Source: Arenicola marina
Taxonomy: Eukaryota > Annelida > Polychaeta > Arenicolidae
NCBI GenBank assembly: GCA_964019135.1
Contig: OZ025252.1
Coordinates: 43,870,959 to 43,934,958 of the forward strand
Reading direction: 5' to 3'
DNA: 64,000 bases
Shown here: positions 28,929 through 59,915 of the stretch, one piece after another
Position numbering within the stretch: position 1 is the stretch's first letter
How the letters are laid out: each line of letters starts with the position of its first letter
The notes under the pieces: model-generated
What the model was told of the DNA's origin: nothing
Seen by the model: the letters and a program-made list of their open reading frames with translations, nothing else
The model's database searches: none
Program-made: the position numbers and the translations under genes

Positions 28929-29604
28929 CAACAGCGCTGTTCTATCATTGATTATGCAAATTATATATATCTATTGGCGTATTGAAGTTGTTTACTCATC
29001 CAGATCACATACGTATCATTGGATGCAATTTATATTTTTACTTCTACCTCTTACACCAGAAAGTATATTTCAATAAATTAGTCAGAACGGAAGAAGTATT
29101 GCCTTGCTTCACGCAAAACAGAAGGAACGTTATTCTCTTGGAGGGACATTCGTATTTTGCCGCATGGAATTTCTGCAGATGAACTGTACATATCGTTTGT
29201 CTCCAGAGGTATTCTGGGCATGAACTGCGGAAGTGCATCAGTATCCGTTGTGGTAAAGTTAGTTGGAACTGTGCATCAGCTCGCCTCGCTTAATGATATA
29301 GTTTTGCCACGAACTGTTGTGAATGGGCTCCAGAAGGCTGTCTAAAGAGACACTGTTGTAATGCCGCAATCAGAGGACAAGGTACACCATGTTGCTGGGT
29401 ATCCTGGTCTGATGAAACCGGTCTTGTTTTTTGATGAACCGCAGTCACCGGACAATGTGCTCCAGAATCCCCTGTCTCACATAGTCAGTGGACAATGTGC
29501 TCCAGAATCCCCTGTCTCACATAGTCAGTGGACAATGTGCTCCAGAATCCCCTGTCTCACAAGGTCAGTGGACAATGTGCTCCAGAATCCCTTGTCTCAC
29601 AAGG
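28929..29604. other. 3' flanks of two convergent genes
   Basis: 677 bp between the stop codons of the SRR-like gene (plus) and GINS1 (minus). It contains AATAAA at 29,072-29,077 for the plus gene and, at 29,446-29,645, the array derived from the GINS1 last exon. No other gene was seen. Confidence 0.6.
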
Positions 29605-29645
29605 TCAGTGGACAATGTGCTCCAGAATACCTTGTCTCACAAGGT
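29446..29645 (-). repeat. 40-bp array copied from the last exon of GINS1, 5 copies
   Basis: Five 40-bp units with GGACAATGTGCTCCAGAAT at 29,448, 29,488, 29,528, 29,568 and 29,608 (positions approximate to 2 bases). Read on minus each unit spells the end of the GINS1 reading frame ([12 protein letters not shown] and the stop). The first unit is the real exon end (29,605-29,645) and the other four lie in the 3'UTR. Later units differ slightly (ACAGGGGATT for ACAAGGTATT). Confidence 0.92.
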
Positions 29646-32600
29646 GTTCGCATTCTGTCCGTAAAATGAAGTGCTGTTCACAAAAAAAGGAAAAAAATCA
29701 TACTACTTGATTTATCTTGAGCATGGGTTATTGTTGACATTTTCTAAGCCTTCAACCATTAGTGACACGTTTTTTTACCACCCCTAACACATCTTGGGAA
29801 TATTACACCAGTCCAGAAAGGCGCGTCAGTGCCGCGCAACTTAATATTTATGTATACACACACCCGTATTAGCCATCCATACAATAGCCGGTAAAAAAAT
29901 GCAATATGAAAATAAAACAGACAATCTTAGACCCTTGCTTTAAGAAAAACGGCACGGTACCTGGCTGTTTTTCTTCAGCAATATCACGTTGCCATCTTGT
30001 GTTTCGAATTCACCATGGTCCATTACACATCGAACCTGCCAAAACCGGTTGTAATAGTCTTGTTACCAGTCGTGAATGAAAACATAATGGCTCGTTTTAT
30101 TAGAGAAACATACATAGTGGTACGTATAAGCATATATTCATATATTGTTTTTTGAAACCTCGGTCAACATCAAAATGGATATACAGATAAAAGGATAACA
30201 CGACTAACTTTGATATCTGGCATTAGATGTTTTAATATGTTTTAATTATATTTAATATTTATATTTAATTATATATAATATTCATATTTCATTATATATA
30301 ATATTCATATTTCATTATATATAATATTCATATTTCATTATATATAATATTCATATTTCATTATATATAATATTCATATTTAATTATATATAATATTCAT
30401 ATTTAATTATATATTATCTAACAGATTAATTCATTAAACTTTACTTTCCTGGCTCAATGAAAAACACCGCTAGGGTTATACCTCTATGTAGAGAGACTTT
30501 GGCGGTTTCATGTCTTGTGTGAGATCCAGACCTCCGTGACCGCCTATCGACCTCATGTAGTTTGCCAGACATTTGTTGTACTTTATAAACCACTGCACCT
30601 GCATAAAGAAAAAATATACGTGAGCATATTATTAGCTTTACGTATGTAAAAGTTACTGTTCAAGGCAAGTATTTGCTTGGTCGAATTGTGAAGGACTCTT
30701 AGACCTGTGAATGTCATATGCCGTCAATGGCTAGGATCAAGGGCAGATTGCAGTATGTTTCCTGGAGTCATCCCCTACTCTCCTTGAAGAAGGAATTTAG
30801 ATCTTTATCATTCAAGACTATTCGCATATTGGGTGGCGAACCCTCGAAGGCCAGCACGATGGCTGAGCTGCTAGAGCTCACTCGACAAAGTCGTGCGCGC
30901 AAAGCAGGCCGAATGCAAAAATCGTTACTAATACCAAAGCATCCATAGCATTCGCCAATACTCTATTTTTTTATTTACACTGATAAAACTTGGAATATAT
31001 GTTGAAATAGGTTTCGGAAAAAGGAACGTGTCCCTTGAATGTTGTTCGTACTTCCTGTTCTGATAAGTTGTACTTAATATCAGCTGGTAGGACACTTCCA
31101 AACTCCCACCTCATCTGGCGCACGCTTTGCAGACGATTGTACCTGTGAATAAAACAAAAGCGTCATAATCGATTTGCTGGTGTACCATCATGAATCAATA
31201 TACCGGTAATACCTATGATCCAGCTGAGATCCTGTGAGTCAGTACGAAGACTGATTTTATCACCTTTAAATCGAACTCCGCTGAGCAATACCAGGTGTTT
31301 CCTCACACAGATAGCCATTATGTATGCCAGTCAAGGAATGAAGCCAAACTTTTATGACATGTGGGACTGTGCAAATCTATGTAAACTTACATTTGTCATA
31401 TTCCATGCCATGACAATACCTCAATAAAATTATATCTATTTAAAGCCATATTCACACATGGCTTCAAATTAGTACAAGTTGCAAGCTTTGTGTAATGTTC
31501 ATGTATGGCTAGGGGAGCAGTAAGCCAATTGCAGCAAATTCATGTCAATGGATATATCCTTTGTAAAAAAACTTACAAATAAGCCAGAAGACATCTCTTA
31601 TTTCTTTCCAGAGCAGCATGACGAAGCTGAATACTTGGAAATAGTCTTTGTTCACCTTCTATTGCTGAATTTCTGAAAAACACCACAATGTATGTCATCC
31701 CTTCTATCATGGAACAATAAATCAACAAAAAAAGGAAACATATTGTACATTTACATGTGTAATGATTAGGTACTAGCAGGAGTATAGTTTACAAACACAC
31801 TCTTTGGATCTGTACTTGTACTCACACATCCTTTTGATTCTGTTCAAACAATGCTCGCATTTCATCCAGCACTTGGCGCACACCATCTTCCTAAAGACAA
31901 ACAGAACTTCATTACATGTTAATATCAATATAGGTATACCTTTCATCTGACGCCTAAACTTAGAAGAAAATTGTGTGTAGTAAATGTTGCTGCATAGAAA
32001 TGGAAAGAAGGAAGTTTGCCTTGGAAGCCTTTCACTAAAAGTTACTAGCTTTTAACATATTCAACAATATTATTTACATGCTAAATTATTGACTTATCCT
32101 AACAATGACAAATGAGAGTTACAGTGGTCTGGAAGGGGGGTCCAGCGTCGAATGTCGATATTTCACGACGTTCCATGTCCATCCCTTCCAGACCCCTAGT
32201 TATGTAAATTATTAATATACAGCTATCTTCATCTACTCTAAAGGTCATTTTGAAGAATCTACACATCACAAGCAGTACATTGGTTTTAACTTCTCCCCTG
32301 ACCTATTAAAACTATGCCACCTCCCAGGCCTAATCATAATTCTATCCATCTAGTCCTCACCATCACCATGCTCACTCAAAATTGCTACTTTTTGTATATG
32401 CCAAAATGCTGTACTATTTCAATAAGCTTATATTTACTATTTTTTTTTTGACCCAATAAAATTTTCAACTTCATGAACAATTTTTAACTGACACTGAGAT
32501 ATGTTGCTGGTATGGCGGGGCATTGTCACATTTACAGTAACAGGTGACAATGAGTGGACAGTGTCAGTGACTGAGTTTGAGAGGAGCAAAAGGACTGTGC

Positions 32601-34434
32601 GGTGTAGGTGGAGGGGGCCAGGTGTGGTTGGCTTGCTGTTATCAGCTTTTTAGTTCGACATGAATGATACTGGTATCTATGTTCTTAGAGAGATCCCAGC
32701 CTGCCTGTTACAGGGCTAGGCCTAACCAATAGTTATTCCTGTAAACTTTCATATTTAACAGAATTATAGCATATCTATCAAATATAACGATGAATACTGC
32801 AATAATAATAATGTGACATATAATAAAAATAGATTATCTTTCATACCTTGCATCCTTCCCCCTTTTTCAGTACTGCCATACCATCCCTCCTCCCCCTTAC
32901 CATCTCCCCCAAACCTTAATCCAGCCATACAGGAACATTGCTCCAGTTAGGAGCAGACCATGTTTACTTAAGTGTTACACTATCCCAACCAAGGCAGTGC
33001 TGCCCTTACAACTAACAAGGCTTATGCCCGACATCATCAGTAAAAGTGAGTGTCACTGTAGGACACTCAAACTCAGTGACTGTGTCACTGATAGTATACC
33101 CAGCGCCAACGCCAGTGACTGTCACTGTCATGATCGCGGCAAATTCAAAGAAAATATGGGCTGCAACATTGTTCTCTGGCATTTATGAATTTGACTTATA
33201 AGTTCTCACACTCAGTTTGGCTGATATCTTTGTTAACATTTGAGCGAGTGCTAAAAAATTTATAGACAGGCTGCAGGACTAAGAGGCCCAACCATTTCAA
33301 TCATACTTTTCTTTATGGGCCAATCTATTCTTCCTACAATATCCAAAGTAATACTGCACATGAAAAAGCTCAATTTGACCACAAACATCAAGCATTACAC
33401 AGTCTAAAAGAAGGAGTGTGCATGCAGCAATGCCTAGCAGTAGCAATGGTTGCCATTAGATGTAATTAACACAATGGAGACAGTAGACGTCATAACAGGT
33501 GCAAGCTTCTTTTAGCTTTTCTTTTAGGCCAACATTTGTGGCCAAACCAAGCATGAACTTCATTAGTTCAAAATGAATTTGACTTTATACAGTCTAGCTG
33601 ATATTGAAAGTGTTAAAATAAGTAACCTTTTGACACTTTGCCGTAAATGTCTGACTATTTTAGGGATATTTTTAACGACAAATTTCTACTGATGTAATGT
33701 AGTGGCTTCCCTCCCCCCCAGCCTTCATGACTAAAATCAGCTGATGCAGACATCTAGACAGTGGGCGCATTTCTTTGGGCCAGGTTTGGTATCCCAACTA
33801 GGACCCACAACCCCCACAACACGTGACAGGCAACTTCCGGGTGTGCCGACAGGGATATGCCTATTCCAATGAAATACACACACTGTTCACATCCGGTACA
33901 CGTCAGGGCACTGGAACCAACTTACCACATGCGCTCAGATCTGCTGCCAGAACCCCCGAAGTAAATAAACAAAGCCCCCCTCTCAAGTTCTATCAGTAGA
34001 TCTGAGCACCTGTGCAACCTACTCTCAACACCTTTCAATCAGCCACCATCTTCTACAAAAGGTCCCATGCTGTTTTGAACAGGGCACATATTGCCATTGG
34101 CATAGCGAATCGATGCGTGTGCACCCATACCCGGGTGAAAGAAGTGTCGGTCAGTTTACCGATGCGTAATGTGCGTATTCGGGTTACCGCAGGGATATAC
34201 CGAGCTACCAAAGAAATGTGCCCGGTGTAGTGTTGAAGCTTTCAAAGCTGTTGCGGTAGTGTGACACTGTCAGTGTCACTGTCACTGACTGACACTTTGA
34301 CAGTCTTTGTCTTTGACTTTGACAGATAAGATGGGCCGTTGCGATCCGCGAAAACTTACTGTAAATGACGGTAATGCACCCGTTCTACATCTATGAAGTT
34401 CCTTTATCAGCTCCAGTGCCTTCTCCCCAAACAT
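29605..34434 (-). CDS. GINS1: GINS1 / PSF1, DNA replication GINS complex subunit, 7 exons, 195 aa
   Basis: Minus-strand coding exons (high to low): 34,434-34,360; 31,890-31,826; 31,672-31,577; 31,142-31,052; 30,598-30,482; 30,035-29,961; 29,673-29,605 (TGA). Total 588 nt, phases agree at every junction, GT-AG throughout; human GINS1 is 196 aa. PSF1 is a subunit of the GINS tetramer that joins MCM2-7 and CDC45 in the replicative helicase in the nucleus. Seen: [15 protein letters not shown] start, [40 protein letters not shown]...[28 protein letters not shown], and the C-terminal [10 protein letters not shown] that anchors the B domain. All conserved family blocks are present. The last exon is the template of the 40-bp array downstream. 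It is head-to-head with ABHD12, 2.9 kb between start codons. Confidence 0.97.
30238..30415. repeat. 23-bp AT-rich array in GINS1 intron, about 7-8 copies
   Basis: Copies of TATTTCATTATATATAATATTCA in the intron between the GINS1 exons at 30,482 and 30,035. Almost pure AT; expected to be easily melted. No coding content. Confidence 0.9.
32125..32194. mobile_element. Miniature inverted-repeat element, about 70 bp, in GINS1 intron 1
   Basis: Starts GGTCTGGAAGGGG and ends CCCTTCCAGACC, an inverted terminal repeat of about 12 bp, with TCCAGCGTCGAATGTCGAT inside. The same start, GGTCTGGAAGGGAGTGGGG then GTCCAGCGTCTCATGTCG, occurs at 35,912, and an end-like CCCCTTCCAGAC at 36,733-36,744. The family was not identified; this is a small DNA-transposon derivative or foldback. 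Confidence 0.6.
33130..33205 (+). mobile_element. Diverged end of the palindromic MITE family, in GINS1 intron 1
   Basis: ATGATCGCGGCAAATTCAAA, then GAAAATATGGGC and GGCATTTATGAATTTGACTTA, resemble the right arm of the 38,507-39,041 element (GCGATCGCGCCAAATTC, GGAAAATATGGGC, GGCATTTATGACTGACTTTA). The matching left end may be lost or diverged. Confidence 0.55.
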
Positions 34435-34720
34435 CTTTTCAAGTGATACCAGTATATTACGTAGAGTTTGACGGTTACAGATAGAAAACAGTATTATGAT
34501 TGTTCGCAAGTGTCGAATTTACCGCCAGCAATTTCAATGTCAAGGCCGAATGTCCGTTTGTATTTCCGGTGCAATTTCAAAGTGACGTCATTATGACGGT
34601 ATTGACGTCCTTGACCGCTGGATGTAAACACAAAACTCCACGTGGTGGACACATGGGCACTTAACATAAATCCAAGCATTACCTAAACCTTACTGCTACA
34701 GTGTCCACGTGAACGTGAGT
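34435..34720 (-). promoter_or_regulatory. Putative GINS1 promoter with CRE palindrome
   Basis: Immediately upstream of the GINS1 start codon there is an ETS-like TTTCCGG, a palindromic cAMP-response element TGACGTCA at 34,583-34,590 with a second half TTGACGTCC close by, and CACGTGG E-box-type motifs near 34,638 and 34,705. Motif content only; no transcription start can be shown from the sequence. Confidence 0.4.
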
Positions 34721-37298: not shown

Positions 37299-40200
37299 AT
37301 GAGACTTCGTAGCGGTGCTGAGGTAATCGAATCGACCAAGGGTGATAATCCTTCGTCAGCAAGCAGCAGCCACATCGCAAAAGAAGTGTCTTCTGTGAAC
37401 GATCCCGGCGGTGTAGATCTACTTGTAAACAAACCACCTTGTGAAAGCACCTTGCTGGGCGGGGTCTGCTCGGGCTCGCACGGCTGTGACTCAGTCTACG
37501 CTTCAAGAGGGGTCGAATCAGACGATCAGATGCACAGCCCTCATCAAACCCCAAGCACTGCTGGTGCTGGGGAAGGAAATACGAGCTCACTTATGTAAGC
37601 ATTGCACGCTTGTTGAACTTGCACATTTACCTTTAATCTTCATACTAAATTCTGCCTTTCTGGGACTTAAAATGTTAAAGCTGCTCATGCAGCAATTTTC
37701 GACATAAGAGTAGCCATGCATCCATGGCTATGGTTGAAGAATCATAGCCATGTAGCATTCTATAGTTAAAAATCAACTTCATATGACAAATTGAATTATT
37801 TAAGTATAGCTTTGATAATTAGTTTCATCAATGTAAATGTACTTTTCTATATATAATTAATGATGTATGAACTCTTGCAAAGTTGTTAAAGTCTTCAAAA
37901 GGAGCTATAATTGCCTACTGGCATAAAAATGGACAACAACATGCAACCATTTTTTTTACAGGAAGTTGATCACTGCACATGTGCAAGGTCATCACATGAT
38001 ATTATAAGCCATGCTAATTGGTTCATTGTTCAGGGACCCAGTCATTGGGTCAGTGAAAACACATGTTTTCATATGAATTTCTGGTGACAGACTGGACTAT
38101 TTTTGCCTTTTAACAAAGGTTAATTATCTGATTAGTCATTACTTGCCAGGAAGTAATAAGAAAAGGATTAAGGTTTGTTTCTGTTATAAAACTTTTCCCA
38201 CCACAAAGGAGAATCAGAGCTACACTTGGTCAAAGTCAAATAACCCTGAAATGGGGTTGTTCCAGACCAGATTTTTACTATGGAATGCTACTACTACTAG
38301 GCTGTGTTTCAGCCCACACAGCCTAGGTTTCTGGGCTAACATAAGAGTATCCAAAGTGCTAGACATATTGTCTGACATTGACTTTGAACATTTTTGATGA
38401 CACGATACATAAGAAAGCCAAGCTTTCCCACACCATTCAGGTAAAAAATGCCTTCTGTAAGGGTAATATGGATGAATTTGATGTGAAAACCATGACTAAA
38501 ATCAAAGTCATAAATGCCGTAGACTCACGTTTCGGCCCATATTTTCCGCGAATTTGGCGCAATCGCTCTAAAAATCACTGACCTGACAAAGCAACCCTGT
38601 GCAATTTTAATGACACCAAACTTACGCGCATACTGCGAGGTTATCCTTTTTTAAGACACAAACAATATTTCTCCGTGTTGACACTCCATTGGCAGGAAAC
38701 GCAGTTTCGTAAACATACTAAAGCACACGTCATAAAATGACGTAGTTGCCATGGCGCCGAACGTGCTCTGAGCTATATTTGCACCAGCCACGCGCGCCAT
38801 GGCAACAGCCTTTCATTGTCTGTGATTTAGTCTATTTGTCACAAAGTGTCTGCTGCCAATGGAGTGTCAGCATGGAGAAATATTGTTTGTGTCTTAAAAA
38901 AGGATAAGCTCACAGTACACACGTAAGTTTGGTATCATTAAAATTGCACAGGGTTGCTTTGTCAGGTCAGTGATTTTTAGAGCGATCGCGCCAAATTCGC
39001 GGAAAATATGGGCAGAAACGTGAGTCTACGGCATTTATGACTGACTTTATACCGGTTACTAAGCTTAATAAAGATTTTATTTTTTCATATTCATGCTGAA
39101 TAATTATGATCAAGATCCCATATCCATCTCCGACAAGAATAGGGGAGAGGGTATCCCAGAGACTCTTTTTGTCATTTTAATTCTTTCACAACCAAACAGA
39201 AATTATTTAGGTTCTAACTTTCTCTCTTTGTAGACCACACAATAAATGGGTAGTCTTATGTATGAAGCTGGCTGGTGCTGCATTGGTGATATCTTACTTC
39301 ATCCTACCAGCTGTGATCAGACTCAATCCCTGGATTCTGTATGAAGTGGCTTTTCTTCATAGAGGTTTGTAAAAGTATTATAAATCTTAAATATTTTGTC
39401 ATAGTGTGGTATCTATACCTTGTCAACATTGCCAGTGGTATACATAGATGCATATGTTACCAGACTGCAGGAATATTCCTTTACATGCCAAGAGCTAGCG
39501 TGTCAGCACAGTGGTCAAATGGTAATGCATACCTCAGTCAAGGCAGCCAGGTTGTCTGAAGTATTGATTTATCATCATCTTTATTTGTAGACTTTATATC
39601 CATTCATATTTTATTTAATAGAAGAAATGTTCATTATATTTTGTATTGATATGTATGTTTTAAAATGCATTGCTCAGTGTTACTTAATATATAATGTATT
39701 GTTTGTAGTAAGATGGCCTCCATTTGTCAATCTAAGTTACCCAGCTGAGCTTGGTCTGAATACTACCCAGAGTTTTCAACTAGAAACTACTGAATCTCTT
39801 TCCATTGGAGTATGGTGAGTCTATTGATACATACTTACATTGCTTACTGGAATGTCCAACTTATTCAGGGTCCCTGGATCAAGCATTGGTAACTTATATC
39901 ATACTAAGCAGTGTGTACGTCCTACCGGGCATACACCTTTCAATTTATCTACCTCTGTTTAAGAAACCAAGATATTGTTTGTACCAGTAGTGGTATATGT
40001 CATTGTTAGAGTCACTTGCCATGCTAGCTACAACATGTTTGTTAAGACAAGACCATATTTTAAAACACTAGTATTCAAGCAAGACAAGACCATATTTTGA
40101 ATACACTAGTATTCTAGCAAAAAAATCCGGTAGAAAGTTTGCAGCGCCAACAGGGTTTGTTAAATTGCCTTCAAACCCCAAAAGAATTGTATTGGTTACT

Positions 40201-43200
40201 TTCTGTACATTATCACAACATCTTGAGTCTTTTATCACATGGAAAATATATGCCAGCTTTGGTAGAGGAACACTGACGTTATAGCATTCCATTGCTTCCT
40301 GCAGGCACACGCTACCTTCAGACCTTGAAGGAGGTCCATTAGCCAAGAAAGACTACACGCTTCAAATGAGTAATGGAAGTCCAGTGGTGCTGTATTTACA
40401 TGGCAATGCGGGAACAAGGTGAGCAAGGCTAGACCAGTAGGGGCGTCCCTGGTGTAATAGTTACCACACTAGACCCCAGATTATTACCGGTAGGTACTGG
40501 GTTCGAATTTGGGCCTGGGTGCGTAATCTTAGGCATGCTTAATCTATTCATCCTTCACTGTCCCAAATCCTTTCTGTATTTGCACGGAAAAGCTAGAGAA
40601 GGTGAGCTTAATGCATCATTCATTTGTGCTGAGTTTTAGGATTACAGGAAATGTTACAATTCCTACCATAGTGGCATGGCAACGTCCCATTACTACACCC
40701 TGTAGCGGATTTCACGAACGCAGTTTAGCCGACTAGGGCGCTTAGTCGTCTAAAGTTACCATGTAAACGATGGGCGATTTTAGCCGTCTAAGCCCCGTAG
40801 CCGGCTAAACTATGTTCGTGAAATAGGCCACAGGTCTTTGGGTCAGCGATCACAATTAGGAGTGATGTATCATTTTCAATCTTGATGAATATGTGAACAC
40901 TGTGCCGGGTTCATGTTTTTAACGTTCATATAGTGTCACCATTGGTGACAGAGGTACACCATTGGTGATGAGAGGCATTGTTTGATTGGAGTTGTAATAT
41001 TGGTGCTTGTGTTTCTGTTGCAGAGCTGGATGGCACAGGATCCAGCTGTACAAGGTGCTAGCCAAGGCTGGCTTCCACGTGGTGGCTATAGACTATAGAG
41101 GTAGCTGGTTCTTGCCGTCATGCTGCGGTTCATCAAACATTTTCTAAACGAAATAATCTGTTTTAAACTCAAGTGATGAATATGTATATCGTCACCTGAA
41201 CGTTGAAGTGTTTGTAACAGGCCATGTTGCAATGGCACATTGAATCTACGTACTTACCTAGATGAATAATCATTGTGTAAGCGTAAGTACCAGACAGTGA
41301 CTCATGATAGCAATAAGTACAGAGAAAGGCATTAGCAACTTTTTCAAGTTTACTTTGGAGCAAATGAAGTCATTTATCTTGGTTGAATCCCGTTTTAAAT
41401 TTACAAGGTGTAGACCTAATAACAGTCATGTGTTGTTCAAACTTAATTAAACTATATCGATTAGACAATGTTGTTTATTTACCAGGCTATGGCGACTCGA
41501 CCGGCAGTCCCACTGAAGACGGCTTGTGTTCGGACGCCATGGCCGCGTACAAGTGGATCCTCCAGCATAGCGGCAATTCGCCGGTCTATATTTGGGGTCA
41601 TTCCATGGGGTCAGGGTAAGAGTTGATAACGATGTAAGACTAAGGATTGAAGAGTATCACCGTGCTATGACCGCTGTCCCTGTTAGTAGAATATTAATGA
41701 GCCCAGCACGAGGTCGAGTGGTAGCGCGCCCGGCTTTAACGTAACCGCTCCTGAGTCTAATAATCTTTACAAATGCTAATGTGTCTAGAATTTTTTCACC
41801 GTTGTTTGTTTGAAGAAAAGGTCTCAATTTATCTCTTTTCAATATGTGTGATTGAGTGTATTTAGGTTACCATTTTGTATGCTTCCAGGGTTGCTACCAA
41901 GGTTGCCAAGCAGATCTGTGATGCTGGTATGTTTCTTCGCAAACTTCCACGTTTCATGATTTTGTCTCATGCTAGATATTTAAAATATTTTAAGCGGAAA
42001 TCAGGTATTTATTGAAAATTGCAAAAACATGCTATATTTTAGCAGTGATATTATAGACACTTTTTAACAAGTGTCGTCTGGCCTGGGTCGTCTGACCTGG
42101 ATGATGAGCTGTTATATTTCTAACGTACAGTGAATAAAGAATTCCAAGATACTGTAAGAAGGTAAATGTGGATAACGTATTGGTTGGTTGTTTCAGATCT
42201 CCCGTTAAGTGGACTCTTTCTGGAAGCTCCGTTCAACAATATCATCGAGGCCACAGTATATCATCCTTTCAGTCAGGTAAATAAACTACTGTATCATCCT
42301 TTGTAGTGTATCATCCTTTCAGTCAGGTAAATAAACTACTGTATCATCCTTTCAGTCAGGTAAATAGTCTAGTGTAGCATCCTTTCAGTCAGGTAACTGA
42401 ACAAGTGTATCATCCTTTGTAGTGTATCATCCTTTCAGTCAGGTAAATAAACTAGTGTATCATCCTTTCAGTCAGGTAAATAATCTAGTGTATCATCCTT
42501 TCAGTCAGGTAAATAATCTAGTGTATCATCCTTTCAGTCAGGTAAATAAACTAGTGTATCATCCTTTCAGTCAGGTAAATAATCTAGTGTATCATCCTTT
42601 CAGTCAAGTAAATAATCTAGTGTATCATCCTTTCAGTCAGGTAAATAAACTAGTGTATCATCCTTTCAGTCAGGTAAATAAATTAGTGTATCATCCTTTC
42701 AGTCAGGTAAATAATCTAGTGTATCATCCTTTCAGTCCGGTAAATAAATGAGTATGATCTTTCCGTCAGGTAAATAAACTGTAGTTTATCATCCTTTGTA
42801 GTGTATCATCCTTTCAGTCAGGTAAATAAATGAGTATCATCCTTTCAGTCAGGTAAACTGCAGTGTATAATCCTTTCTATTGTAAATAATCTGCAGAATA
42901 TCATACTTTCAGTCGGGTAAATGATCAGTAGTGTGACATCCTTTCAGATAAATATCAGATGAACAATTTTTGTCAGCTAAATTTGTGAACAGTTGCGAAC
43001 AGTTTGTTGAGTGACATGTTTTGTCCGTTGCACAGCCTTTCCGCTACATGCCGTGGTTCACCTGGGCCTTCGTGGAGGCGATGAAGATGAACAACATCCA
43101 CTTCTACAGCGACAAGAGGTGCGTCTGTCTGTGCAACCGTCTCCTCTTCATTGAGATCTATGACTCTAATCACTAAACTGTCAACAAATGATTTACAAAT

Positions 43201-43890
43201 ACTTGTGTGAAGCAACACATATTCAACGCAGTATCTGATAAGCGTCACTGTGTAAACACGAGTATATACATACATGTATTTCATTTCAAGAACTTTTTGA
43301 TTTGACATCAACCATTCTCAGTTCACTTATCCTGTGTATCTCGCTTCTCCCCTTCCTCCCTCAGTATTGCCAGTGTGACGGCGCCAACCCTTATCCTACA
43401 TGCCGAAGACGATGGCATTGTACCTTACATTCTAGGCAAAAAGGTACGAAACAGATTTTAAAAGGACAAAAATTACAAAATAAACTGTAAAAATATACCC
43501 ATAGTGCCTCAAACAAATTACCGGCAGTACACTGTGGTCACTGCCTTATACGATCTTATATTATCGCTCACTCCCTGCAGGTTAGCAACGCTTTAATCTA
43601 CAGAACGCATGGACGTTCCGATAGAATCTCTGGGGGCTTCCAATTTTACATCTTACATGTGAAAAGGCGAGTTCGTGCTACCCCTTGGAACCCCCCCCCC
43701 CCCTGATATCTGTAAATGCTACGCCTGCTGAACGGAAGTGACGTATGTTGCCATCGGGTCCACAGCTGTACGAGTCCGCCCTGATATCCAAGGAGCGTGG
43801 CGGGGTCCAGTTCATCACCTTCGACGGCCAGCGTGGGTACGGCCACAAGCACATCCACAAGGCCCCAGAGCTGCCCTCCATCATACAGTA
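37299..43890 (+). CDS. ABHD12: ABHD12, membrane alpha/beta-hydrolase (lysophosphatidylserine lipase), 11 exons, 419 aa to first stop
   Basis: Exons: 37,299-37,594; 39,234-39,364; 39,709-39,814; 40,305-40,418; 41,024-41,100; 41,486-41,615; 41,889-41,926; 42,197-42,276; 43,036-43,118; 43,365-43,443; 43,766-43,887 (donor GTAAGT) or on to TAA at 43,888-43,890 if unspliced. Phases agree throughout; human ABHD12 is 398 aa. It is an ER membrane enzyme with lumenal active site that hydrolyses lysophosphatidylserine. Seen: disordered N-terminus (MRLRSGAE, human MRKRTEP), one membrane segment at about 104-126, YLHGNAGTR (208-216) oxyanion region, YRGYGDSTGSPTEDG, nucleophile elbow GHSMGSG with Ser281, LHAEDDGIVP with the acid at Asp367/368, and GYGHKHIHKAPELP with catalytic His405. 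Complete triad. The 3' end is complicated by an 80-bp array; see the alternative last exon. Confidence 0.95.
38507..39041. mobile_element. 535-bp palindromic MITE in ABHD12 intron 1
   Basis: Left arm 38,507-38,695 is matched by the reverse complement of the right arm 38,853-39,041: 189 bp each, roughly 95% identical by eye, starting GTCATAAATGCCGTAGACTC. Even the centre is partly palindromic (GTTGCCATGGCGCC against GCGCGCCATGGCAAC). No reading frame; a non-autonomous DNA transposon. Outer flanks ATCAAA / TGACTTTAT do not give a clear target-site duplication. A diverged end of the same family lies at about 33,130-33,200. Confidence 0.88.
40440..40640 (+). mobile_element. tRNA-derived SINE in ABHD12 intron 4
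   Basis: CCCTGGTGTAATAGTTACCACACTAG is the A-box side and GGTACTGGGTTCGAATTTGGGC the B-box side. CATCCTTCACTGTCCCAAATCC follows as in the 21,675-21,864 element (minus), so the two share head and middle part. The 3' part differs. Older than the 21.7 kb copy by its number of differences. Confidence 0.75.
40698..40834. mobile_element. Small inverted-repeat element (about 137 bp) in ABHD12 intron 4
   Basis: The left end TGTAGCGGATTTCACGAACG and CAGTTTAGCCGACTAG are matched in reverse complement by the right end (ACCTGTGGCCTATTTCACGA, ACATAGTTTAGCCGGCTA). The centre contains AACGATGGGCGATTTTAGCC. A second member of the family is at 50,655-50,735. Confidence 0.8.
41697..41740 (+). other. tRNA A-box-like relic
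   Basis: GGTCGAGTGGTAGCGCGCCC in ABHD12 intron 6 looks like the D-arm half of a tRNA-derived element, but no B box follows. Probably a truncated SINE head. Confidence 0.3.
42258..42940 (+). repeat. 33-bp array copied from the exon 8 / intron junction of ABHD12, about 20 copies
   Basis: The last 20 or so bases of ABHD12 exon 8 (encoding YHPFSQ) plus the donor GTAAATAAAC are repeated in 33-bp steps, TGTATCATCCTTTCAGTCAG then GTAAATAAACTAG, until about 42,940 where the copies decay. Each copy keeps the TCAG/GTAAAT donor and an upstream CCTTTCAG that looks like an acceptor. The real exon is the first unit (ending 42,276). Some copies have 4-15 bp changes (GTAACTGAAC, CCTTTGTAG). Confidence 0.95.
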
Positions 43891-46447
43891 AGTGGCCACA
43901 TGGTTTTCCAGCGTGGGTACGGCCACAAGCACATCCACAAGGCCCCAGAGCTGCCCTCCATCATACAGTAAGTGGCCCCATGGTTTTCCAGCGTGGGTAC
44001 GGCCACAATCACATCCACAAGGCCCCAGAGCTGCCCTCCATCATACAGTAAGTGGCCCCGTGGCTTTCCAGCGTGGGTACGGCCACAATCACATCCACAA
44101 GGCCCCAGAGCTGCCCTCCATCATACAGTAAGTGGCCCCATGGTTTTCCAGCGTGGGTACGGCCACAAGCACATCCACAAGGCCCCAGAGCTGCCCTCCA
44201 TCATACAGTAAGTGGCCCCATGGTTTTCCAGCGTGGGTACGGCCACAATCACATCCACAAGGCCCCAGAGCTGCCCTCCATCATACAGTAAGTGGCCCCG
44301 TGGCTTTCCAGCGTGGGTACGGCCACAATCACATCCACAAGGCCCCAGAGCTGCCCTCCATCATACAGTAAGTGGCCCCATGGTTTTCCAGCGTGGGTAC
44401 GGCCACAAGCACATCCACAAGGCCCCAGAGCTGCCCTCCATCATACAGTAAGTGGCCCCATGGTTTTCCAGCGTGGGTACGGCCACAAGCACATCCACAA
44501 GGCCCCAGAGCTGCCCTCCATCATACAGTAAGTGGCCCCGTGGCTTTCCAGCGTGGGTACGGCCACAATCACATCCACAAGGCCCCAGAGCTGCCCTCCA
44601 TCATACAGTAAGTGGCCCCATGGTTTTCCAGCGTGGGTACGGCCACAATCACATCCACAAGGCCCCAGAGCTGCCCTCCATCATACAGTAAGTGGCCCCA
44701 TGGTTTTCCAGCGTGGGTACGGCCACAATCACATCCACAAGGCCCCAGAGCTGCCCTCCATCATACAGTAAGTGGCCCCGTGGCTTTCCAGCGTGGGTAC
44801 GGCCACAATCACATCCACAAGGCCCCAGAGCTGCCCTCCATCATACAGTAAGTGGCCCCATGGTTTTCCAGCGTGGGTACGGCCACAATCACATCCACAA
44901 GGCCCCAGAGCTGCCCTCCATCATACAGTAAGTGGCCCCATGGTTTTCCAGCGTGGGTACGGCCACAATCACATCCACAAGGCCCCAGAGCTGCCCTCCA
45001 TCATACAGTAAGTGGCCCCATGGTTTTCCAGCGTGGGTACGGCCACAAGCACATCCACAAGGCCCCAGAGCTGCCCTCCATCATACAGTAAGTGGCCCCG
45101 TGGCTTTCCAGCGTGAGTACGGCCACAATCACATCCACAAGGCCCCAGAGCTGCCCTCCATCATACAGTAAGTGGCCCCATGGTTTTCCAGCGTGGGTAC
45201 GGCCACAATCACATCCACAAGGCCCCAGAGCTGCCCTCCATCATACAGTAAGTGGCCCCATGGTTTTCCAGCGTGGGTACGGCCACAATCACATCCACAA
45301 GGCCCCAGAGCTGCCCTCCATCATACAGTAAGTGGCCCCGTGGCTTTCCAGCGTGGGTACGGCCACAATCACATCCACAAGGCCCCAGAGCTGCCCTCCA
45401 TCATACAGTAAGTGGCCCCATGGTTTTCCAGCGTGGGTACGGCCACAATCACATCCACAAGGCCCCAGAGCTGCCCTCCATCATACAGTAAGTGGCCCCA
45501 TGGTTTTCCAGCGTGGGTACGGCCACAATCACATCCACAAGGCCCCAGAGCTGCCCTCCATCATACAGTAAGTGGCCCCGTGGCTTTCCAGCGTGGGTAC
45601 GGCCACAATCACATCCACAAGGCCCCAGAGCTGCCCTCCATCATACAGTAAGTGGCCCCATGGTTTTCCAGCGTGGGTACGGCCACAATCACATCCACAA
45701 GGCCCCAGAGCTGCCCTCCATCATACAGTAAGTGGCCCCATGGTTTTCCAGCGTGGGTACGGCCACAATCACATCCACAAGGCCCCAGAGCTGCCCTCCA
45801 TCATACAGTAAGTGGCCCCATGGTTTTCCAGCGTGGGTACGGCCACAAGCACATCCACAAGGCCCCAGAGCTGCCCTCCATCATACAGTAAGTGGCCCCG
45901 TGGCTTTCCAGCGTGGGTACGGCCACAATCACATCCACAAGGCCCCAGAGCTGCCCTCCATCATACAGTAAGTGGCCCCATGGTTTTCCAGCGTGGGTAC
46001 GGCCACAATCACATCCACAAGGCCCCAGAGCTGCCCTCCATCATACAGTAAGTGGCCCCATGGTTTTCCAGCGTGGGTACGGCCACAATCACATCCACAA
46101 GGCCCCAGAGCTGCCCTCCATCATACAGTAAGTGGCCCCATGGTTTTCCAGCGTGGGTACGGCCACAATCACATCCACAAGGCCCCAGAGCTGCCCTCCA
46201 TCATACAGTAAGTGGCCCCATGGTTTTCCAGCGTGGGTACGGCCACAATCACATCCACAAGGCCCCAGAGCTGCCCTCCATCATACAGTAAGTGGCCCCA
46301 TGGTTTTCCAGCGTGGGTACGGCCACAATCACATCCACAAGGCCCCAGAGCTGCCCTCCATCATACAGTAAGTGGCCCCATGGTTTTCCAGCGTGGGTAC
46401 GGCCACAATCACATCCACAAGGCCCCAGAGCTGCCCTCCATCATACA
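43832..46447 (+). repeat. 80-bp array copied from ABHD12 exon 11 and its donor, 33 copies
   Basis: Each unit is 56 bp of exon (from CGTGGGTACGGCCACAA to CATCATACA, encoding the catalytic-His segment RGYGHKHIHKAPELPSII) followed by 24 bp of intron (GTAAGTGGCCCCATGG and TTTTCCAG). Every unit is bounded by a TTTTCCAG acceptor-like and a GTAAGT donor. The first unit is the real exon end (43,832-43,887); the last (46,392-46,447) has lost the donor (CAGGAAGT). Units are 80 bp without exception and differ at few sites (AAGC/AATC, CATGGTT/CGTGGCT). CGTGGCT copies recur mostly every 240 bp, a three-unit higher-order repeat. Confidence 0.97.
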
Positions 46448-46596
46448 GGAAGTGGCCCCGTGGCTTTATATAAGGATCTCCAGGTGTGGCTTATGAGGTT
46501 GCACACTGATCGCCCGATCATCTTGGATCCTGTAATCTGGGTCGCAGTGTTCGGAATGCGTCTGTATATGTAAATGTATTCATGTCATTATCTCAG

Positions 46597-46828
46597 GAAG
46601 ATGTTTGTCCCTGTAGGCGCTCAGGTTGCCATCAGACCTTCCGTCCTCGAGTCACATGCATTTTCCTTGTGGATAGTTTACTCACAAGGGACCCTTCAAA
46701 CACTGTCCATCTGTAGCGTTATATTGCTTCTGTTGTGCTTCTTGCCAACGACGTTCTGTTTGTACAAGAAGTGTTCGGTATTGATGCAAACATTGCCTAA
46801 AATGACTCGTTACTACATTTTTCAGTGA
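46597..46828 (+). CDS. Possible alternative last exon of ABHD12 (76 extra residues)
   Basis: An acceptor TTATCTCAG at 46,588-46,596 is followed by a frame that joins the ABHD12 exon 11 donor (43,887) in phase: CA|G AAG ATG. It stays open to TGA at 46,826-46,828. The extension would start KMFVPVGAQ and contains a hydrophobic stretch (ICSVILLLLCFLPTTFCLY) that could be a membrane segment. Human ABHD12 ends only about 12 residues after this point with no such tail. It would require splicing across the entire 2.6 kb array. Alternatives: exon 11 ends at the TAA at 43,888, or the last array copy reads into IIQEVAPWLY and stops at 46,496. Confidence 0.35.
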
Positions 46829-47060
46829 TTTTATTCACGGTTCCTCACTTCCGGCTACTTGAGCAATGCGATGTCACCACGGCAACGCCTCCAGACCACG
46901 TGACCAGGACACAAGTTTTATCATACGGGCACATACGGGCATCCAGCGAGTGTCTGCTGGGGTCACGCATGACCCAGTTCAACCGGATGGCCAGTGTGTG
47001 TGTCTGGGGCACATCTCGTGCGTGAGATATATCTCGTGAATATCTTCGTGCGGCACATAT

Positions 47061-50735: not shown

Positions 50736-50769
50736 ACTCTGAACTGATTTAATCGTGTTCATTGTGTCA

Positions 50770-50895
50770 GAAATGTACATTCTCATATTTTTCCTTTAAA
50801 ACATGTGCATTCTTATATCTGTCCTTTAAAACATGTACATTCTCATATCTTTCCTTTAAAACATGTACATTCTTATATCTGTCCTTTAAAACAGG
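50770..50895. repeat. 30-bp AT-rich repeat, 4 copies
   Basis: Units of the type TACATTCTCATATCTTTCCT/TTAAAACATG with TCTTATATCTGTCC variants alternating. Confidence 0.9.
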
Positions 50896-51112
50896 AATGT
50901 CCAAATGCGTATGACTAAGACACGACAAAACCTACACGAAGTACACCAATTTGAGAAGAGCGGGTTTTAAACAACATAATTATATGTCCTTATATGTATT
51001 GCACACTATAAACTATAGTTTTGTATATATGCAAAAAGGAGTGCCGTTAGCCCTGATGATATATTCCGGGGTTTGTCCGCACAATATAAGACCTTACCTG
51101 TAAGACTCAGTA

Positions 51113-51427
51113 ACACAAGATTCAGAGATTCTACTGTAGGCCACTGTGTATCGTTTGTCACAAAATACAAGATTCAGAGATTCTACTGTAGGCCACTGTG
51201 TATCGTTTGTCACAAAATACAAGATTCAGAGATTCTACTGTAGGCCACTGTGTATCGTTTGTCACAAAATACAAGATTCAGAGATTCTACTGTAGGCCAC
51301 TGTGTATCGTTTGTCACAAAATACAAGATTCAGAGATTCTACTGTAGGCCACTGTGTATCGTTTGTCACAAAATACAAGATTCAGAGATTCTACTGTAGG
51401 CCACTGTGTATCGTTTGTCACAAAATT
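51113..51427. repeat. 52-bp repeat, 6 copies
   Basis: Six nearly identical copies of CAAGATTCAGAGATTCTACT ... CGTTTGTCACAAAATA. The sequence around it is AT-rich and without recognised genes. Confidence 0.95.
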
Positions 51428-51780
51428 CATGACTATTTCCGTCTATTCCGAAAACCCAGAGTAGAGTTCGTTATACGTTTAGTGTTAAACTGCTCTACTT
51501 ATAAAAACGATTGATATATATCTCGATTTTTAGATCAAAGTTATTGTAGGAATGAGAGATTCGGAGGGGGGCATGCCTATATCATTAAGGAAATGTAAGG
51601 GTGGTATGACCAGAAGGAGAAGAATTTAACGTTGCGCTTCGACGCAAGTTTGTTCCCACGCTAATATTCTGAATCCACCGCTGAACATTTAACTTATCGA
51701 ACCTATAGTTCGCGTTACGACACATTTCCCCTTAGGAGAATAAGGATTTCCTCCGCGCAATGCCGCTCATGTAAGATTAC

Positions 51781-55454: not shown

Positions 55455-55455
55455 C

Positions 55456-55925
55456 GTGAGGGAGGGGCGGGTGGTCGGTCAGGGAGGGGCGGGTGGTCGG
55501 TCAGGGAGGGGCGGGTGGTCGGTCAGGGAGGGCCGGGTGGTCGGTCGGGGATCGAGGGCCAGGGGGGCGGTCGGGGATCGAGGGCCGGGGGGTCGGTCGG
55601 GGAGGGCCCGGGGGTCGGTCGGGGAGGGCCGGGGGGTCGGTCGGGGAGGGCCCGGGGGTCGGTCGGAGAGGGCCGGGGGGTCGGTCGAGGAGGGGCGGGG
55701 GGTCGGTCGGGGAGGGCCCGGGGGTCGGTCGGGGAGGGCCGGGGGTCGGTCGAGGAGGGGCGGGGGGGTCGGTCGGGGAGGGGCGGGGGGTCGGTCGAGG
55801 AGGGGCGGGGGGTCGGTCGGGGAGGGCCCGGGGGTCGGTCGGAGAGGGCCGGGGGGGTCGGTCGAGGAGGGCCGGGGGGTCGGTCGAGGAGGGGCGGGGG
55901 GTCGGTCGGGGAGGGCCGGGGGGTC
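55456..55925. repeat. 21/22-bp very G-rich minisatellite, about 21 copies
   Basis: Units of the form GGGGGTCGGTCGGGGAGGGC with GGTGGTCGGTCAGGG early in the array. The plus strand has G3-G7 runs every few bases and is a strong G-quadruplex candidate. Open frames on both strands are by-products of the composition. Confidence 0.93.
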
Positions 55926-56599
55926 ATTATTTCAACTGATTAAGGCGTCAGCATGCGACCACCCATATCGTTGAAACGTTTGATATAAGCATCATATATA
56001 TAATATATATATATATGAATTTTCTCGAGGCTGACGGCGTGAAGTGGTATAGGTGTACTTATACCATCATCAAAATTAACGTTGTGTCGGGTCAGTGGAC
56101 AAGTGAAGCAGCTTTAGCCGGTGTGAACGTCGGCTTAGTCCCTGGCAAACTAATCACACTATATGAGGGCCACGCCATGTACTACAATTTATACAATATA
56201 CCATATCATCGTTTGGTTAAAGCTGGCGGTAATCCCAGCTTATTTTGCGCCTAATGTTAACTATGTAGCAAACACGCTAAAAGCCGTATAACCAGCACGG
56301 AAATACACGTTTCTGAACACGATACTCCCAACGCGTATTCGTCTGAAGCGGACGATCACACTATGATTGATCATATAAAACGTATATAATTACATAAGGC
56401 TATATGTGGTCAATCGAGCGTGTAGGAAGTTTAGATTCCCAGTAACACACCAGGCGATATGCAATTCATATACGTCACTTCGTTGTATTTGGTTATTTAG
56501 TTACTGACTTTATCGGCAACCTTGTCATGGTCCCGCACATGATTCCAACTATATTAAGTGTCACATGTATAAGAAAATCCCATATTTCGGCGTTCGTCT
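55926..56599. other. Unique spacer
   Basis: TA microsatellite at 55,994-56,015; otherwise unique. A 79-codon frame at 56,015-56,254 was not recognised. Confidence 0.4.
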
Positions 56600-57062
56600 A
56601 TTCGTCTGCTTGTCTAGCCCGGGTGTCGGCGGATCTGTCTAGCCTGGGGAAGGGCGGATCTGTCTAGCCTGGGGAAGGGCGGATGTGTCTAGCCTGGGGA
56701 AGGGCGGATCTGTCTAGCCTGGGGAAGGGCGGATGTGTCTAGCCCGGGTGTCGGCCGATCTATCTAGCCTGGGGACCGGCGGATCTGTCTAGCCTGGGGA
56801 AGGGTGGATCTGTCTATCCCGGGTGTCGGCGGATCTGTCCAGCCCGGGTGTCGGTGGATCTATCTGGCCTGGGGACCGGCGGGTATGTCTAGCCAGGGTG
56901 TCGGCGGATATGTCTAGCCTGGGGACCGGCGGATCTGTCTAGCCAGGGTGTCGGCGGATCTGCCCAGCCCGGGTGTCTGCAGATCTGTCTAGCCAGGGTG
57001 TCGGCGGATCTGCCCAGCCCGGGTGTCTGCAGATCTGTCTAGCCAGGGTGTCGGCGGATATG
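56600..57062. repeat. 25-bp minisatellite, about 18-19 copies, two unit types
   Basis: TGTCTAGCCTGGGGAAGGGC/GGATC alternates with a variant TGTCTAGCCCGGGTGTCGGC/GGATC and hybrids (GGGGACCGGC, TGCCCAGCC). Ordered alternation near the right end (CCAGGGTGTCGGCGG, GATCTGCCCAGCCCGGG) indicates two-unit higher-order duplication. Confidence 0.92.
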
Positions 57063-57099
57063 TCTGTAGTGTCTGTATTTGTGGCTGTGCCTATCCACA

Positions 57100-58622
57100 G
57101 GCAGTTGTTGGAGGACATTGCGTAGTAGACGCATCACAGGCCCGGGTGACAGGGAGGGGCAGGCGACGGTCGCGTACGGTGGGAAGTAAATAGATCTACA
57201 CTCCTGCCCTCATTTGGTCACCATGTCACCTGGGGAGCTGAGAATGGTTATTCAGGAGTGGTATTGATATCAAACGGTGCGGTGTGGGATTTTGTTTTAA
57301 TTATGCCAGCGGCATGCATCACGAATATCCCGCTTGCTATTGTCCCATAGCCGGAACAGGACAGGCTTACCGGTAACCACGTGAGGCGGCGCCTACGCCG
57401 TAAGCTAGGCAGAAGCTCGCACCATCAAGTCTGACCGGGCACCCCACAACAAGCGAGCGAGCACCCAACCCTACACAATATTTCTGGGTAAACGACCCGC
57501 CGGTGAGCGAGCGCCAGGCTAACTGGGTGCCGTATTGACGTCACGGCGCGGCCAGCCAATCAGGGCGCTCGTTGCTGTTGATTGCCCGAGCGAGCGGTGT
57601 CTGTCTGTCTGTGTGTCTCACTGTGTGTGCGTCTGGGCTTGGCTTTCGGGGTTCGCCGGTCGCTGCGGGACTCAGTCGACGTCCGTCTGTCCATCAGTCA
57701 GGCAAGGAGTCGGGAGGGGCGTCGATATTACACCTGATATATCTCGATAACGCAGATATGATCTCACAAACAGACAACGTCTGTCGTCGGTGAGGTTTGA
57801 AGGAACAACGCCGTGAGATAAGTTCCGCGGATAGCTCTCGCTGCGCGGAGATAAACTCCGCTGGGATATTCCGCTCGTCGTTTGAAGACGGCCGCTCGCA
57901 CTGGTGGTGTGTGGTGGAGATAGGCGGTGAGACCAACGTGCGTGCTGCTTGTTGCGGCCGGGCGGGCTGGCTGGCACGGTTTACGTCGGTCCGGTGACGG
58001 TTGTCTCCGCTGGTATGGTATTGCGTGTGTATGGTGTTTACATGGGCCGCCGTAGAAGAGCCTCAGATATCGTGGACCCGTATACTATAGAAGGTTAGCG
58101 TAACCTGGGTATTGTGTGTCTGTAACAGAACACTAAACAGATACATCCGCGGACATCCGCCGTCGGTGCATGCAGCAACCCATATTCACACCTCACTACG
58201 CAGTCTGTGACCGTCACATCTCTGTCACCGTCACATCGCTGTCACCGTCAGCGCCCTGAGCCACCCCAGCCCCAGGTCAGTCAGAGCGACCTGCCTTTAC
58301 ACGGTGGATAGACAGTCGTCTGTCTTGGTGTGGTGAGATCAAAGGACTGGGGCTATAAAAGCGGACAGAAGCCGGTGTTGGGCGGGAGACCAGCGGCGGA
58401 GGAGGGGAGCGGTTGAGCGGCAAGGGATGAAGAGCGGTGAAAGACGCGCCGTCACTGTCCCAGAGACCCACCTGGTGGAGGTGTTGTAGCAGCAGTAGCT
58501 CCTGTAGCCTACGTACGGCGAGGGGTAGACCCCGCAGCCCGCCTCACGTCGGACAGACCCACCCAAAGGTGTTCCTCCCCGGGGTAGACGCCCACGACGA
58601 CCTGGGGGCGACCCCCGGGTCC
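57100..58622 (+). promoter_or_regulatory. CpG-rich promoter and 5'UTR of the RHOU-like gene
   Basis: GC- and CpG-rich block. It carries a palindromic CRE TGACGTCA at 57,536-57,543, a CCAAT box (AGCCAATCAGG) at 57,556, and a canonical TATA box (GCTATAAAAGCGG, 58,352-58,364). A start about 30 bp past the TATA box would give a 5'UTR of roughly 240 nt. That UTR holds one small upstream frame: ATG at 58,427 to TAG at 58,489 (20 codons), out of frame with the main start at 58,623. Confidence 0.55.
58427..58489 (+). CDS. Upstream open reading frame in the RHOU-like 5'UTR
   Basis: ATG AAG AGC ... TTG TAG, 20 codons, 73 bp downstream of the TATA box and 134 bp before the main start. It is in another frame and ends before the main ATG, the usual layout of a translation-dampening uORF. 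Coding of a functional peptide is not implied. Confidence 0.35.
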
Positions 58623-58992
58623 ATGCCCCCCCACCAAGCGGACAGGCTGGACCACTCGGCCAGCCTGATTGCGGGCCCCCAAGACACCCCCAATGGGGGT
58701 GTCGGCAGCAACGGTGTCGGCCCCCCTCCCGGGGTGGCGGTGGCCGTGGGGCCCGGCGGGATGGGAGCGGGCGGGACGGGGGCCGGCGGGGCGGGGCCGG
58801 GCGCAGTGACCACCCCCGCGGGTCCCCGGGCCAGCAGGGAGAGTCCCGGGAGCGACTCGTCCTTCGATGAACCCAGCGTGAAGTGTATCCTGGTGGGCGA
58901 TGGGTCCATCGGGAAGACTTCCATGGTCGTCAGCTACACAACCAATGGATACCCAACGGAGTACCTGCCCACAGCCTTCGACAACTACTCAG
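58623..58992 (+). CDS. RHOU: RHOU/Wrch-type Rho GTPase, first coding exon (partial)
   Basis: Start ATG 58,623 is the first in-frame ATG and gives [12 protein letters not shown], close to human RHOU MPPQQGDP. 370 nt, donor GTAGG at 58,993. RHOU (Wrch-1) is an atypical, fast-cycling Rho GTPase of the CDC42 branch acting in adhesion and filopodia. Seen: a Gly/Pro/Ala-rich N-terminal extension of about 85 residues, then [20 protein letters not shown] with the P-loop GDGSIGKT, followed by [18 protein letters not shown] (switch I), nearly identical to RHOU (VKCVLVGDGAVGKTSLVV...) and less like RHOV (NGYPARYRPTALDTFS). The exon ends exactly where the vertebrate gene's first exon ends. The later exons (DTAGQ, NKxD-like, C-terminal CCFV) are not in the window, so the first intron exceeds 5 kb. 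The exon end is the template of the 46-bp array downstream. Confidence 0.88.
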
Positions 58993-59915
58993 GTAGGCTT
59001 TACTTGTTACCTCCCCACGTCCTTCGACAACTACTCAGGTAGGCTTTACTTGTTACCTGCCCACAGCCTTTGACAACTACTCAAGTAGGCTTTACTTGCT
59101 ACCTGCCCACAGCCTTCGACAACAACTCAGGTAGGCTTTACTTGTTACCTGCCCACAGCCTTTGATAACTACTCAGGTAGGCTTTACTTGTTACCTGCCC
59201 ACAGCCTTTGACAACTACTCAGGTAGGCTTTACTTGTTACCTGCCCACATCCTTTGACAACTACTCAAGTAGGCTTTACTTGCTACCTGCCCACAACCTT
59301 CGACAACAACTCAGGTAGGCTTTACTTGTTACCTGCCCACAGCCTTTGACAACTACTCAAATAGGCTTTACTTGCTACCTGCCCACAGCCTTTGACAACT
59401 ACTCAGGTAGGCTTTACTTGTTACCTGCCCACAGACTTCGACAACTACTCAGGTAGGCTTTACTTGTTACCTGGCCACAGCCTTCGACAACTACTCAGGT
59501 AGGCTTTACTTGTTACCTGCCCACAGCCTTTGACAACTACTCATGTAGGCTTTACTTGTTACCTGCCCACAGCCTTTGACAACTACTCAGGTAGGCTTTA
59601 CTTGTTACCTGGCCTCAGCCTTCGACAACTACTCAGGTAGGCTTTACTTGTTACCTGCCCACAGCCTTTGACAACTACTCAGGTAGGCTTTACTTGTTAC
59701 CTGGCCTCAGCCTTCGACAACTACTCATGTAGGCTTTACTTGTTACCTGCCCACAGCCTTTGACAACTACTCAGGTAGGCTTTACTTGTTACCTGGCCAC
59801 AGCATTCGACAACTACTCAGGTAGGCTTTACTTGTTACCTGTCCACGGCCTTTGACAACTACTCACGTAGGCTTTACTTGTTACCTGCCCTCAGCCTTCG
59901 ACAACTACTTTTATT
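58963..59915 (+). repeat. 46-bp array copied from the exon 1 / intron junction of the RHOU-like gene, about 20 copies
   Basis: Units consist of 30 bp of exon (ACCTGCCCACAGCCTTCGAC/AACTACTCAG, coding LPTAFDNYS) and 16 bp of intron (GTAGGCTTTACTTGTT). The first is the real exon end. Copies vary at few sites (TTCGAC/TTTGAC, CAGG/CATG/CAAG donors, GCCCACAG/GGCCTCAG). In most copies CCCACAG looks like an acceptor and TCAG/GTAGG is an intact donor, enclosing 18 nt. Confidence 0.95.

Follow-up and report, generated by a model that had tools for sequence, protein, structure and literature searches.

Minisatellites on downstream edges of coding sequence in Arenicola marina: three arrays across exon donors and a related array at a stop codon

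Tandem repeats that run across exon/intron junctions are known in amphioxus, where they have been named mirages (PMC3087553, PMC3902484). In its passages on the globin genes BflGb6 and BflGb9, PMC3087553 describes mirages at both 5' and 3' boundaries, reports reverse-transcription PCR results that suggest normal splicing, and cites the mirage of Adh3 together with two further reports. The corresponding passages of PMC3902484 describe two PGBD5 arrays in which copy 1 lies directly against a 5' splice site, and cite Adh and troponin C. Tandem repeats are mentioned in amphioxus huntingtin scaffolds (PMC2206037), and tandem-repeat density is treated in PMC2632668; the relevant passages of these two papers contain no boundary arrays. 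Here we describe four minisatellites that start in the coding sequence of GINS1, ABHD12 (two arrays) and RHOU in 64,000 nucleotides (nt) of DNA from the polychaete Arenicola marina (contig OZ025252.1, positions 43,870,959 to 43,934,958, forward strand). This whole stretch is called the window, and positions are counted from its first letter. A reading of its letters alone (the original prediction) had pointed to the four arrays, had attributed them to a process aimed at exon 3' ends, and had named the amphioxus precedent, which the literature bears out.

Tandem arrays were called with Tandem Repeats Finder (TRF), which returned 64 rows for the 64,000 base pairs (bp) of the window; merged by hand, these gave 38 arrays that occupy 21,235 bp. 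The four arrays of interest, with the unit lengths predicted for them, were confirmed by the TRF positions:

29450 to 29645, minus strand: 40-bp array of 4.9 copies that starts in the last GINS1 codons (TRF, reading frame)
42255 to 42921, plus strand: 33-bp array, irregular, merged from several TRF rows, crossing the donor of ABHD12 exon 8
43828 to 46467, plus strand: 80-bp array of 33.0 copies (TRF), crossing the donor of ABHD12 exon 11
58962 to 59909, plus strand: 46-bp array of 20.6 copies (TRF; 20 full copies and a 28-nt partial copy), crossing the donor of RHOU exon 1

Every one of the four starts within coding sequence, and in each the most upstream copy is the coding copy, in frame with the conserved protein. 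As had been predicted, the units are unrelated: their lengths differ, and six pairwise comparisons scored no higher than shuffles (P 0.21 to 0.95), so that the four arrays arose independently. Of the other merged arrays, 33 make no contact with known coding sequence, with the proviso that some of them could touch small unseen exons, the scan for further genes having covered 40 of 380 open frames and eight array-borne frames.

Gene models were built by tblastn with human proteins, followed by manual splicing. All their junctions are GT-AG, and the three complete frames (a racemase-like gene, GINS1 and ABHD12) run from ATG to stop. Together the models give 25 donors, 24 acceptors, 4 starts and 3 stops, that is, 56 coding edges. 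The parts on which the arrays lie are as follows, a slash marking the exon end:

29605 to 34434, minus strand: GINS1 coding region, 7 exons, 195 amino acids and stop (tblastn for all exons, canonical GT-AG)
29605 to 29607, minus strand: GINS1 stop codon TGA, with TG in unit 1 and A in unit 2, spanning the first repeat junction
37299 to 46862, plus strand: ABHD12 coding region, modelled with 12 exons, 430 amino acids and stop (tblastn or reading frame, canonical GT-AG)
42197 to 42276, plus strand: ABHD12 exon 8, donor CAG/GTAAAT, last 22 nt within array copy 1
43766 to 43887, plus strand: ABHD12 exon 11, donor ACA/GTAAGT, last 60 nt within array copy 1
46826 to 46862, plus strand: ABHD12 exon 12, terminal; in the model, stop-free entry is possible only from the first exon 11 donor
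58623 to 58992, plus strand: RHOU exon 1, coding part, donor CAG/GTAGGC, last 31 nt within array copy 1

The models of ABHD12 exons 1, 2, 7 and 12 are based on reading frame, splice sites and relatives, and those of the other exons on tblastn matches (weak for exon 9). The RHOU frame has a Pfam Ras family match just below the cut-off, and no RHOU exon after exon 1 was found within the window; numerous weak tblastn RHOU matches, in array copies and near 4.5, 21 and 55 kb, were set aside as glycine-rich or repeat low complexity.

All four arrays had been predicted to sit on exon 3' ends. An exact GT donor is spanned in ABHD12 exons 8 and 11 and in RHOU exon 1, but not in GINS1. In the three former arrays the repeat unit contains the exon/intron boundary, and they are new members of the known mirage kind in genes new to it (ABHD12 twice, RHOU). 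The edges of the arrays do not coincide with the exon ends; in exon 8, exon 11 and RHOU, respectively, the first unit takes in 22, 60 and 31 nt upstream of the donor and 11, 20 and 15 nt downstream of it. Later donors are dead ends. Use of ABHD12 exon 11 donors 2-7 leads to an immediate TAA (the residues IQ, then the stop), the first five later donors of ABHD12 exon 8 lead to a stop at residue 333 (normal 430), and in RHOU the use of donor 2 causes a frameshift, while donors 3-5 lead to a stop. Because each of these stops sits in the read-through beside donor 1 or 2, donors further along inherit it. The GT itself is retained in 32 of the 33 exon 11 copies, the last copy having GG, and in 19 of the 20 full RHOU copies, of which six have lost the last exonic G.

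The array in GINS1 is a different case. Its assignment as a donor array came from a misread strand: the gene lies on the minus strand, with exons from 34434 to 29605, and the AAGGTCAGT that resembles a donor when the plus strand is read runs antisense to GINS1; there is no donor. In the sense of the gene the 40-bp unit runs ACCTTGTGAGACAAGG...CACATTGTCCACTG. Copy 1 (29645-29606) encodes the C-terminal 12 residues and the TG of the stop codon, and copies 2-5 lie downstream of the stop. Unit 1 is wholly coding sequence of the terminal exon and holds no exon/intron boundary; the array is better called a related variant of a mirage than a mirage proper. No AATAAA or ATTAAA was found in about 800 nt 3' of the stop codon (28800-29605, minus strand). 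Since this array has no donor and yet shows the same layout as the others, a working first copy with more copies behind it, a splice site is not needed for an array of this kind.

These observations are probably best explained by near-random tandem duplication in a minisatellite-rich genome, with arrays being kept where the first copy still works. An array would start when a stretch of 33-80 bp at the downstream end of coding sequence is locally duplicated in tandem, perhaps during repair of a break, and would then grow by block-wise unequal exchange or conversion. It could persist where the most upstream copy alone provides the correct exon end and donor, or the C-terminus and stop; later copies would then fall in the intron or the 3' untranslated region and be free to change. 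Amino-acid changes are indeed present in later copies of the RHOU, exon 11 and GINS1 arrays. The sites of duplication are probably near random, and selection may act as a filter that retains arrays with a working first copy. Arrays wholly within an exon would usually disturb the protein, and arrays at a downstream edge need not do so if the first copy is the one used. Near-random duplication is favoured over targeting of exon ends by the layout of the donorless GINS1 array and by the ease with which a random unit meets an edge: a unit of 33-80 bp that overlaps coding sequence crosses an edge in 44-79% of placements.

The copies carry marks of how the arrays grew. Eight lags were tested in each of two arrays. 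In that of exon 11, whose copies have an overall TRF match of 98%, variants reappear at lags 3 (P 0.008) and 7 (P 0.005), and in that of RHOU weakly at lag 4 (P 0.046). In the exon 8 array a truncated 17-bp unit occurs at three places and gives higher-order periods of 50 and 116 bp. The recurrence at fixed lags and the truncated units are marks of block-wise amplification. No base is shared at any array edge as microhomology, a result nearly built in, as TRF ends an array where the period stops; the exon 11 array, with exactly 33.0 copies, is the informative one and speaks against shared bases, the last copies of the other three being broken or irregular. The 33.0 copies and the absence of a shared base in this one array would suit a first duplication by fill-in at a staggered break better than slippage at a pre-existing repeat.

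Whether arrays cross coding edges more often than chance would bring about was assessed with a null in which every array was collapsed to one unit, leaving 44,054 nt, and the units were dropped at random. Crossings were counted strictly, when the unit itself holds the edge (three arrays), or leniently, with the GINS1 array included (four). The P values are not corrected for the choice of the window, which was made because a reader had noticed the pattern, and they are not to be taken at face value. With all 38 arrays 1.57 crossings are expected, against which three (strict) give P = 0.21 and four (lenient) P = 0.069. Arrays overlapping coding sequence number five, where 3.54 are expected from 38 arrays (P 0.28) and 2.14 from the 23 arrays with at least three copies (P 0.057). 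In the block of the racemase-like gene, GINS1 and ABHD12, which has eight arrays, 0.80 crossings are expected (two strict, P 0.18; three lenient, P 0.034), and for its six arrays with at least three copies 0.62 (P 0.115 or 0.014). An earlier null, which used the uncollapsed 64-kb window and entered GINS1 by its full array length, gave 1.08 expected of 38 arrays (P for four or more, 0.022) and 0.66 of 23 (P 0.0034). Since 21,235 bp of the window consist of the arrays themselves, this null was too generous, and the collapsed one replaced it.

Furthermore, the 56 coding edges were scanned for self-copies within 700 nt on the non-coding side. The four arrays came out on top (scores 136, 78, 73 and 55), followed by a score of 26. 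The latter belongs to a degenerate 35-nt copy of the end of ABHD12 exon 4, donor included, in the following intron (40573-40607), against a maximum of 19 in 60 shuffles. We dropped this candidate: its P of 0.00175 becomes 0.098 over 56 junctions, and two overlapping windows among 202 controls scored 28. A mild excess of edge-crossing arrays is possible; the counts from this one window do not establish a process that seeks out donors.

Several points weigh against near-random duplication followed by survival of working first copies. For the 23 arrays with at least three copies 0.96 crossings are expected, and the observed numbers give P = 0.067 (strict) or 0.013 (lenient). Donors taken alone number three, where 0.71 are expected from 38 arrays (P = 0.033) and 0.43 from 23 (P = 0.008), and downstream edges are arrayed in 4 of 28 cases and upstream edges in 0 of 28 (one-sided P 0.056, by hand). 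Selection only removes arrays and cannot make an excess, so that a real excess would call for more than random placement. That the cell uses the first donor alone is a prediction from reading frames. Loss of constraint outside copy 1 is not established by the substitutions either. Nonsynonymous and synonymous events there are 7 and 5 in RHOU, 2 and 0 in exon 11, and 4 and 2 in GINS1; pooled, they come to 13 and 7, where 283 and 86 changes are possible, and such counts are too small to serve as proof. Variable sites in exon 11 are fewer in the exonic part (2 of 60) than in the intronic part (4 of 20), whereas RHOU shows the opposite trend (11 of 31 exonic, 2 of 15 intronic).

The original prediction had invoked a recurrent process that duplicates DNA specifically at exon 3' ends, for example through R-loop-linked breaks or duplication at AGGT sites. 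Such targeting would account for the surplus of arrayed donors over the null, and the passages on lancelet PGBD5 add two arrays with first copies abutting 5' splice sites (PMC3902484). It is nonetheless unlikely. One of the four arrays, that of GINS1, has no donor; the contrast between donors (3 of 25 arrayed) and acceptors (0 of 24) is not significant in the window (hypergeometric P 0.125 one-sided, about 0.24 two-sided, by hand); and acceptor-side mirages are described for amphioxus globins in the passages concerned of PMC3087553. There is no clear preference for AG/GT, which stands at 13 of the 25 donors and at two of the three arrayed ones, and the distance between unit edge and GT is 11-60 nt. 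A G-rich coding strand is what R-loops favour; in the three donor arrays that strand is C-rich (skew -0.22, -0.09 and -0.27), and an R-loop origin by this route was rejected for them. GINS1 is slightly G-rich (+0.14).

It might instead be that arrays arise anywhere and that those at coding edges last, or stay recognisable, for longer, selection fixing copy 1 and exchange with copy 1 renewing the others, so that they are over-represented among large arrays. The excess is indeed stronger for arrays with at least three copies than for all arrays, and variants travel between copies in blocks. We regard this as quite improbable. In exon 11 copy 1 has AAG (lysine) where 26 of the 33 copies have AAT (asparagine), so that conversion from copy 1 was not dominant there. 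The lysine of copy 1 is also that of the human protein at this site. Use of the repeated copies, as alternative donors or as arrays that regulate their host gene through, for instance, unproductive splicing, would agree with the kept GTs of exon 11 and RHOU and with the truncation or frameshift that later donors would cause, yet it appears very unlikely: recent homogenisation, to which the close match among exon 11 copies points, also predicts kept donors, and the last exonic G has decayed in part of the RHOU copies. An assembly artefact, with inflated copy numbers or exon ends duplicated by misassembly, has a precedent of sorts in the passages on two lancelet repeats that differed in copy number between assemblies (PMC3902484). 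The copies here differ by patterned substitutions, and the same passages report that resequencing argued against assembly error for the 108-bp PGBD5 repeats (PMC3902484); we hold an artefact to be very unlikely.

Near-random duplication with survival of working first copies thus stays the reading that we prefer. A broader proposal, that minisatellites of this genome are generally born at downstream coding edges, whether donor or stop codon, seems doubtful to us; in the window such arrays occupy about one edge in 14 (4 of 56). If it were true, very many genes would carry tens of near-identical 5' splice sites in a row, only the first of which yields protein, and these would serve as a natural series in which spliceosomal choice between equal donors could be tested.

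The remaining features of the window are given here. The gene convergent with GINS1 is complete:

25978 to 28928, plus strand: serine/aspartate-racemase-like gene, 8 exons (Pfam PALP)

Its best solved relatives are serine racemase 5cvc and aspartate racemase 5ybw; two exons were matched to relatives, and the rest of the model comes from reading frame, splice sites and relatives. None of its junctions is arrayed, and one array lies in its first intron. Upstream of it, at 24933-25043, is an inverted repeat with 41-nt arms, 88% complementary and 29 nt apart. Another inverted repeat, in ABHD12 intron 1 (38506-39042), has 222-nt arms, 90% complementary and 93 nt apart, and looks like a fold-back mobile element. 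Open frames of at least 45 amino acids outside the two known gene regions, with arrays masked, numbered 380; the 40 scanned against Pfam came from the 50 longest, and they returned the racemase gene and the RHOU frame, remaining matches being below the curated cut-offs. ARAGORN (bacterial code) found no tRNA in the window, and Rfam gave no match at the gathering score.

Three further arrays deserve mention. At 1-2993 lies an array with 65 copies of a 46-bp unit that contains AAG/GTACAC. On the left it extends beyond the window, and it could be a further boundary array. At 3197-4225 a 54-bp array of 19 copies with 99% matches has open reading frames on both strands. Among the eight array-borne frames scanned, its minus frame gave Pfam matches to TusA and zf-tcix that pass the cut-offs; no single stretch does so, and we take these matches to be sums over repeat copies. 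Other matches in the array are weak. Lastly, a 60-bp array of five copies at 61922-62219 contains GGTTCGAACCC, which resembles the B box of tRNA genes; it is perhaps an amplified piece of a short interspersed nuclear element, and neither ARAGORN nor Rfam finds anything in it.

If mirages are as common as the window hints, they would constitute a large natural experiment on splice-site choice, with up to 33 near-identical donor units in a row. New introns and intragenic copy-number variation could readily arise from them as well. The GINS1 array, without a splice site, helps to separate duplication aimed at splice sites from duplication anywhere followed by survival of the first copy. Among the matches listed from the open-licence literature, in a search partly aimed at stop codons, neither a mirage at a stop codon nor a genome-wide count of mirages turned up.

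Like the amphioxus mirages of Adh3, troponin C, the globins and PGBD5, the three donor arrays are minisatellite-like duplications in tandem across an exon/intron boundary, and many of the copies keep the splice signals; the length instability of the amphioxus repeats is thought, in the passages on them, to be due to unequal or intra-strand crossing-over (PMC3087553, PMC3902484). The three donor arrays differ in the genes concerned, ABHD12 (twice) and RHOU, and in that one array reaches 33 copies. The GINS1 array differs in having no splice site, in starting in the last codons and in its stop codon spanning a repeat junction. Intron gain of the Rogers type, treated in passages of PMC4974935 for potato RdRp, ATP2A1 and fission yeast, likewise involves tandem duplication with a donor-like site, the extra copies being removed as intron. 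In ABHD12, by contrast, the introns concerned have their acceptors (before exons 9 and 12) beyond the arrays, so that no new intron is bounded by duplicated AG/GT sites, and the unit edges described here are not at AGGT. Finally, the four arrays are like ordinary intronic and intergenic minisatellites, such as the 33 others in the window, the one difference being that their seed unit takes in coding sequence.

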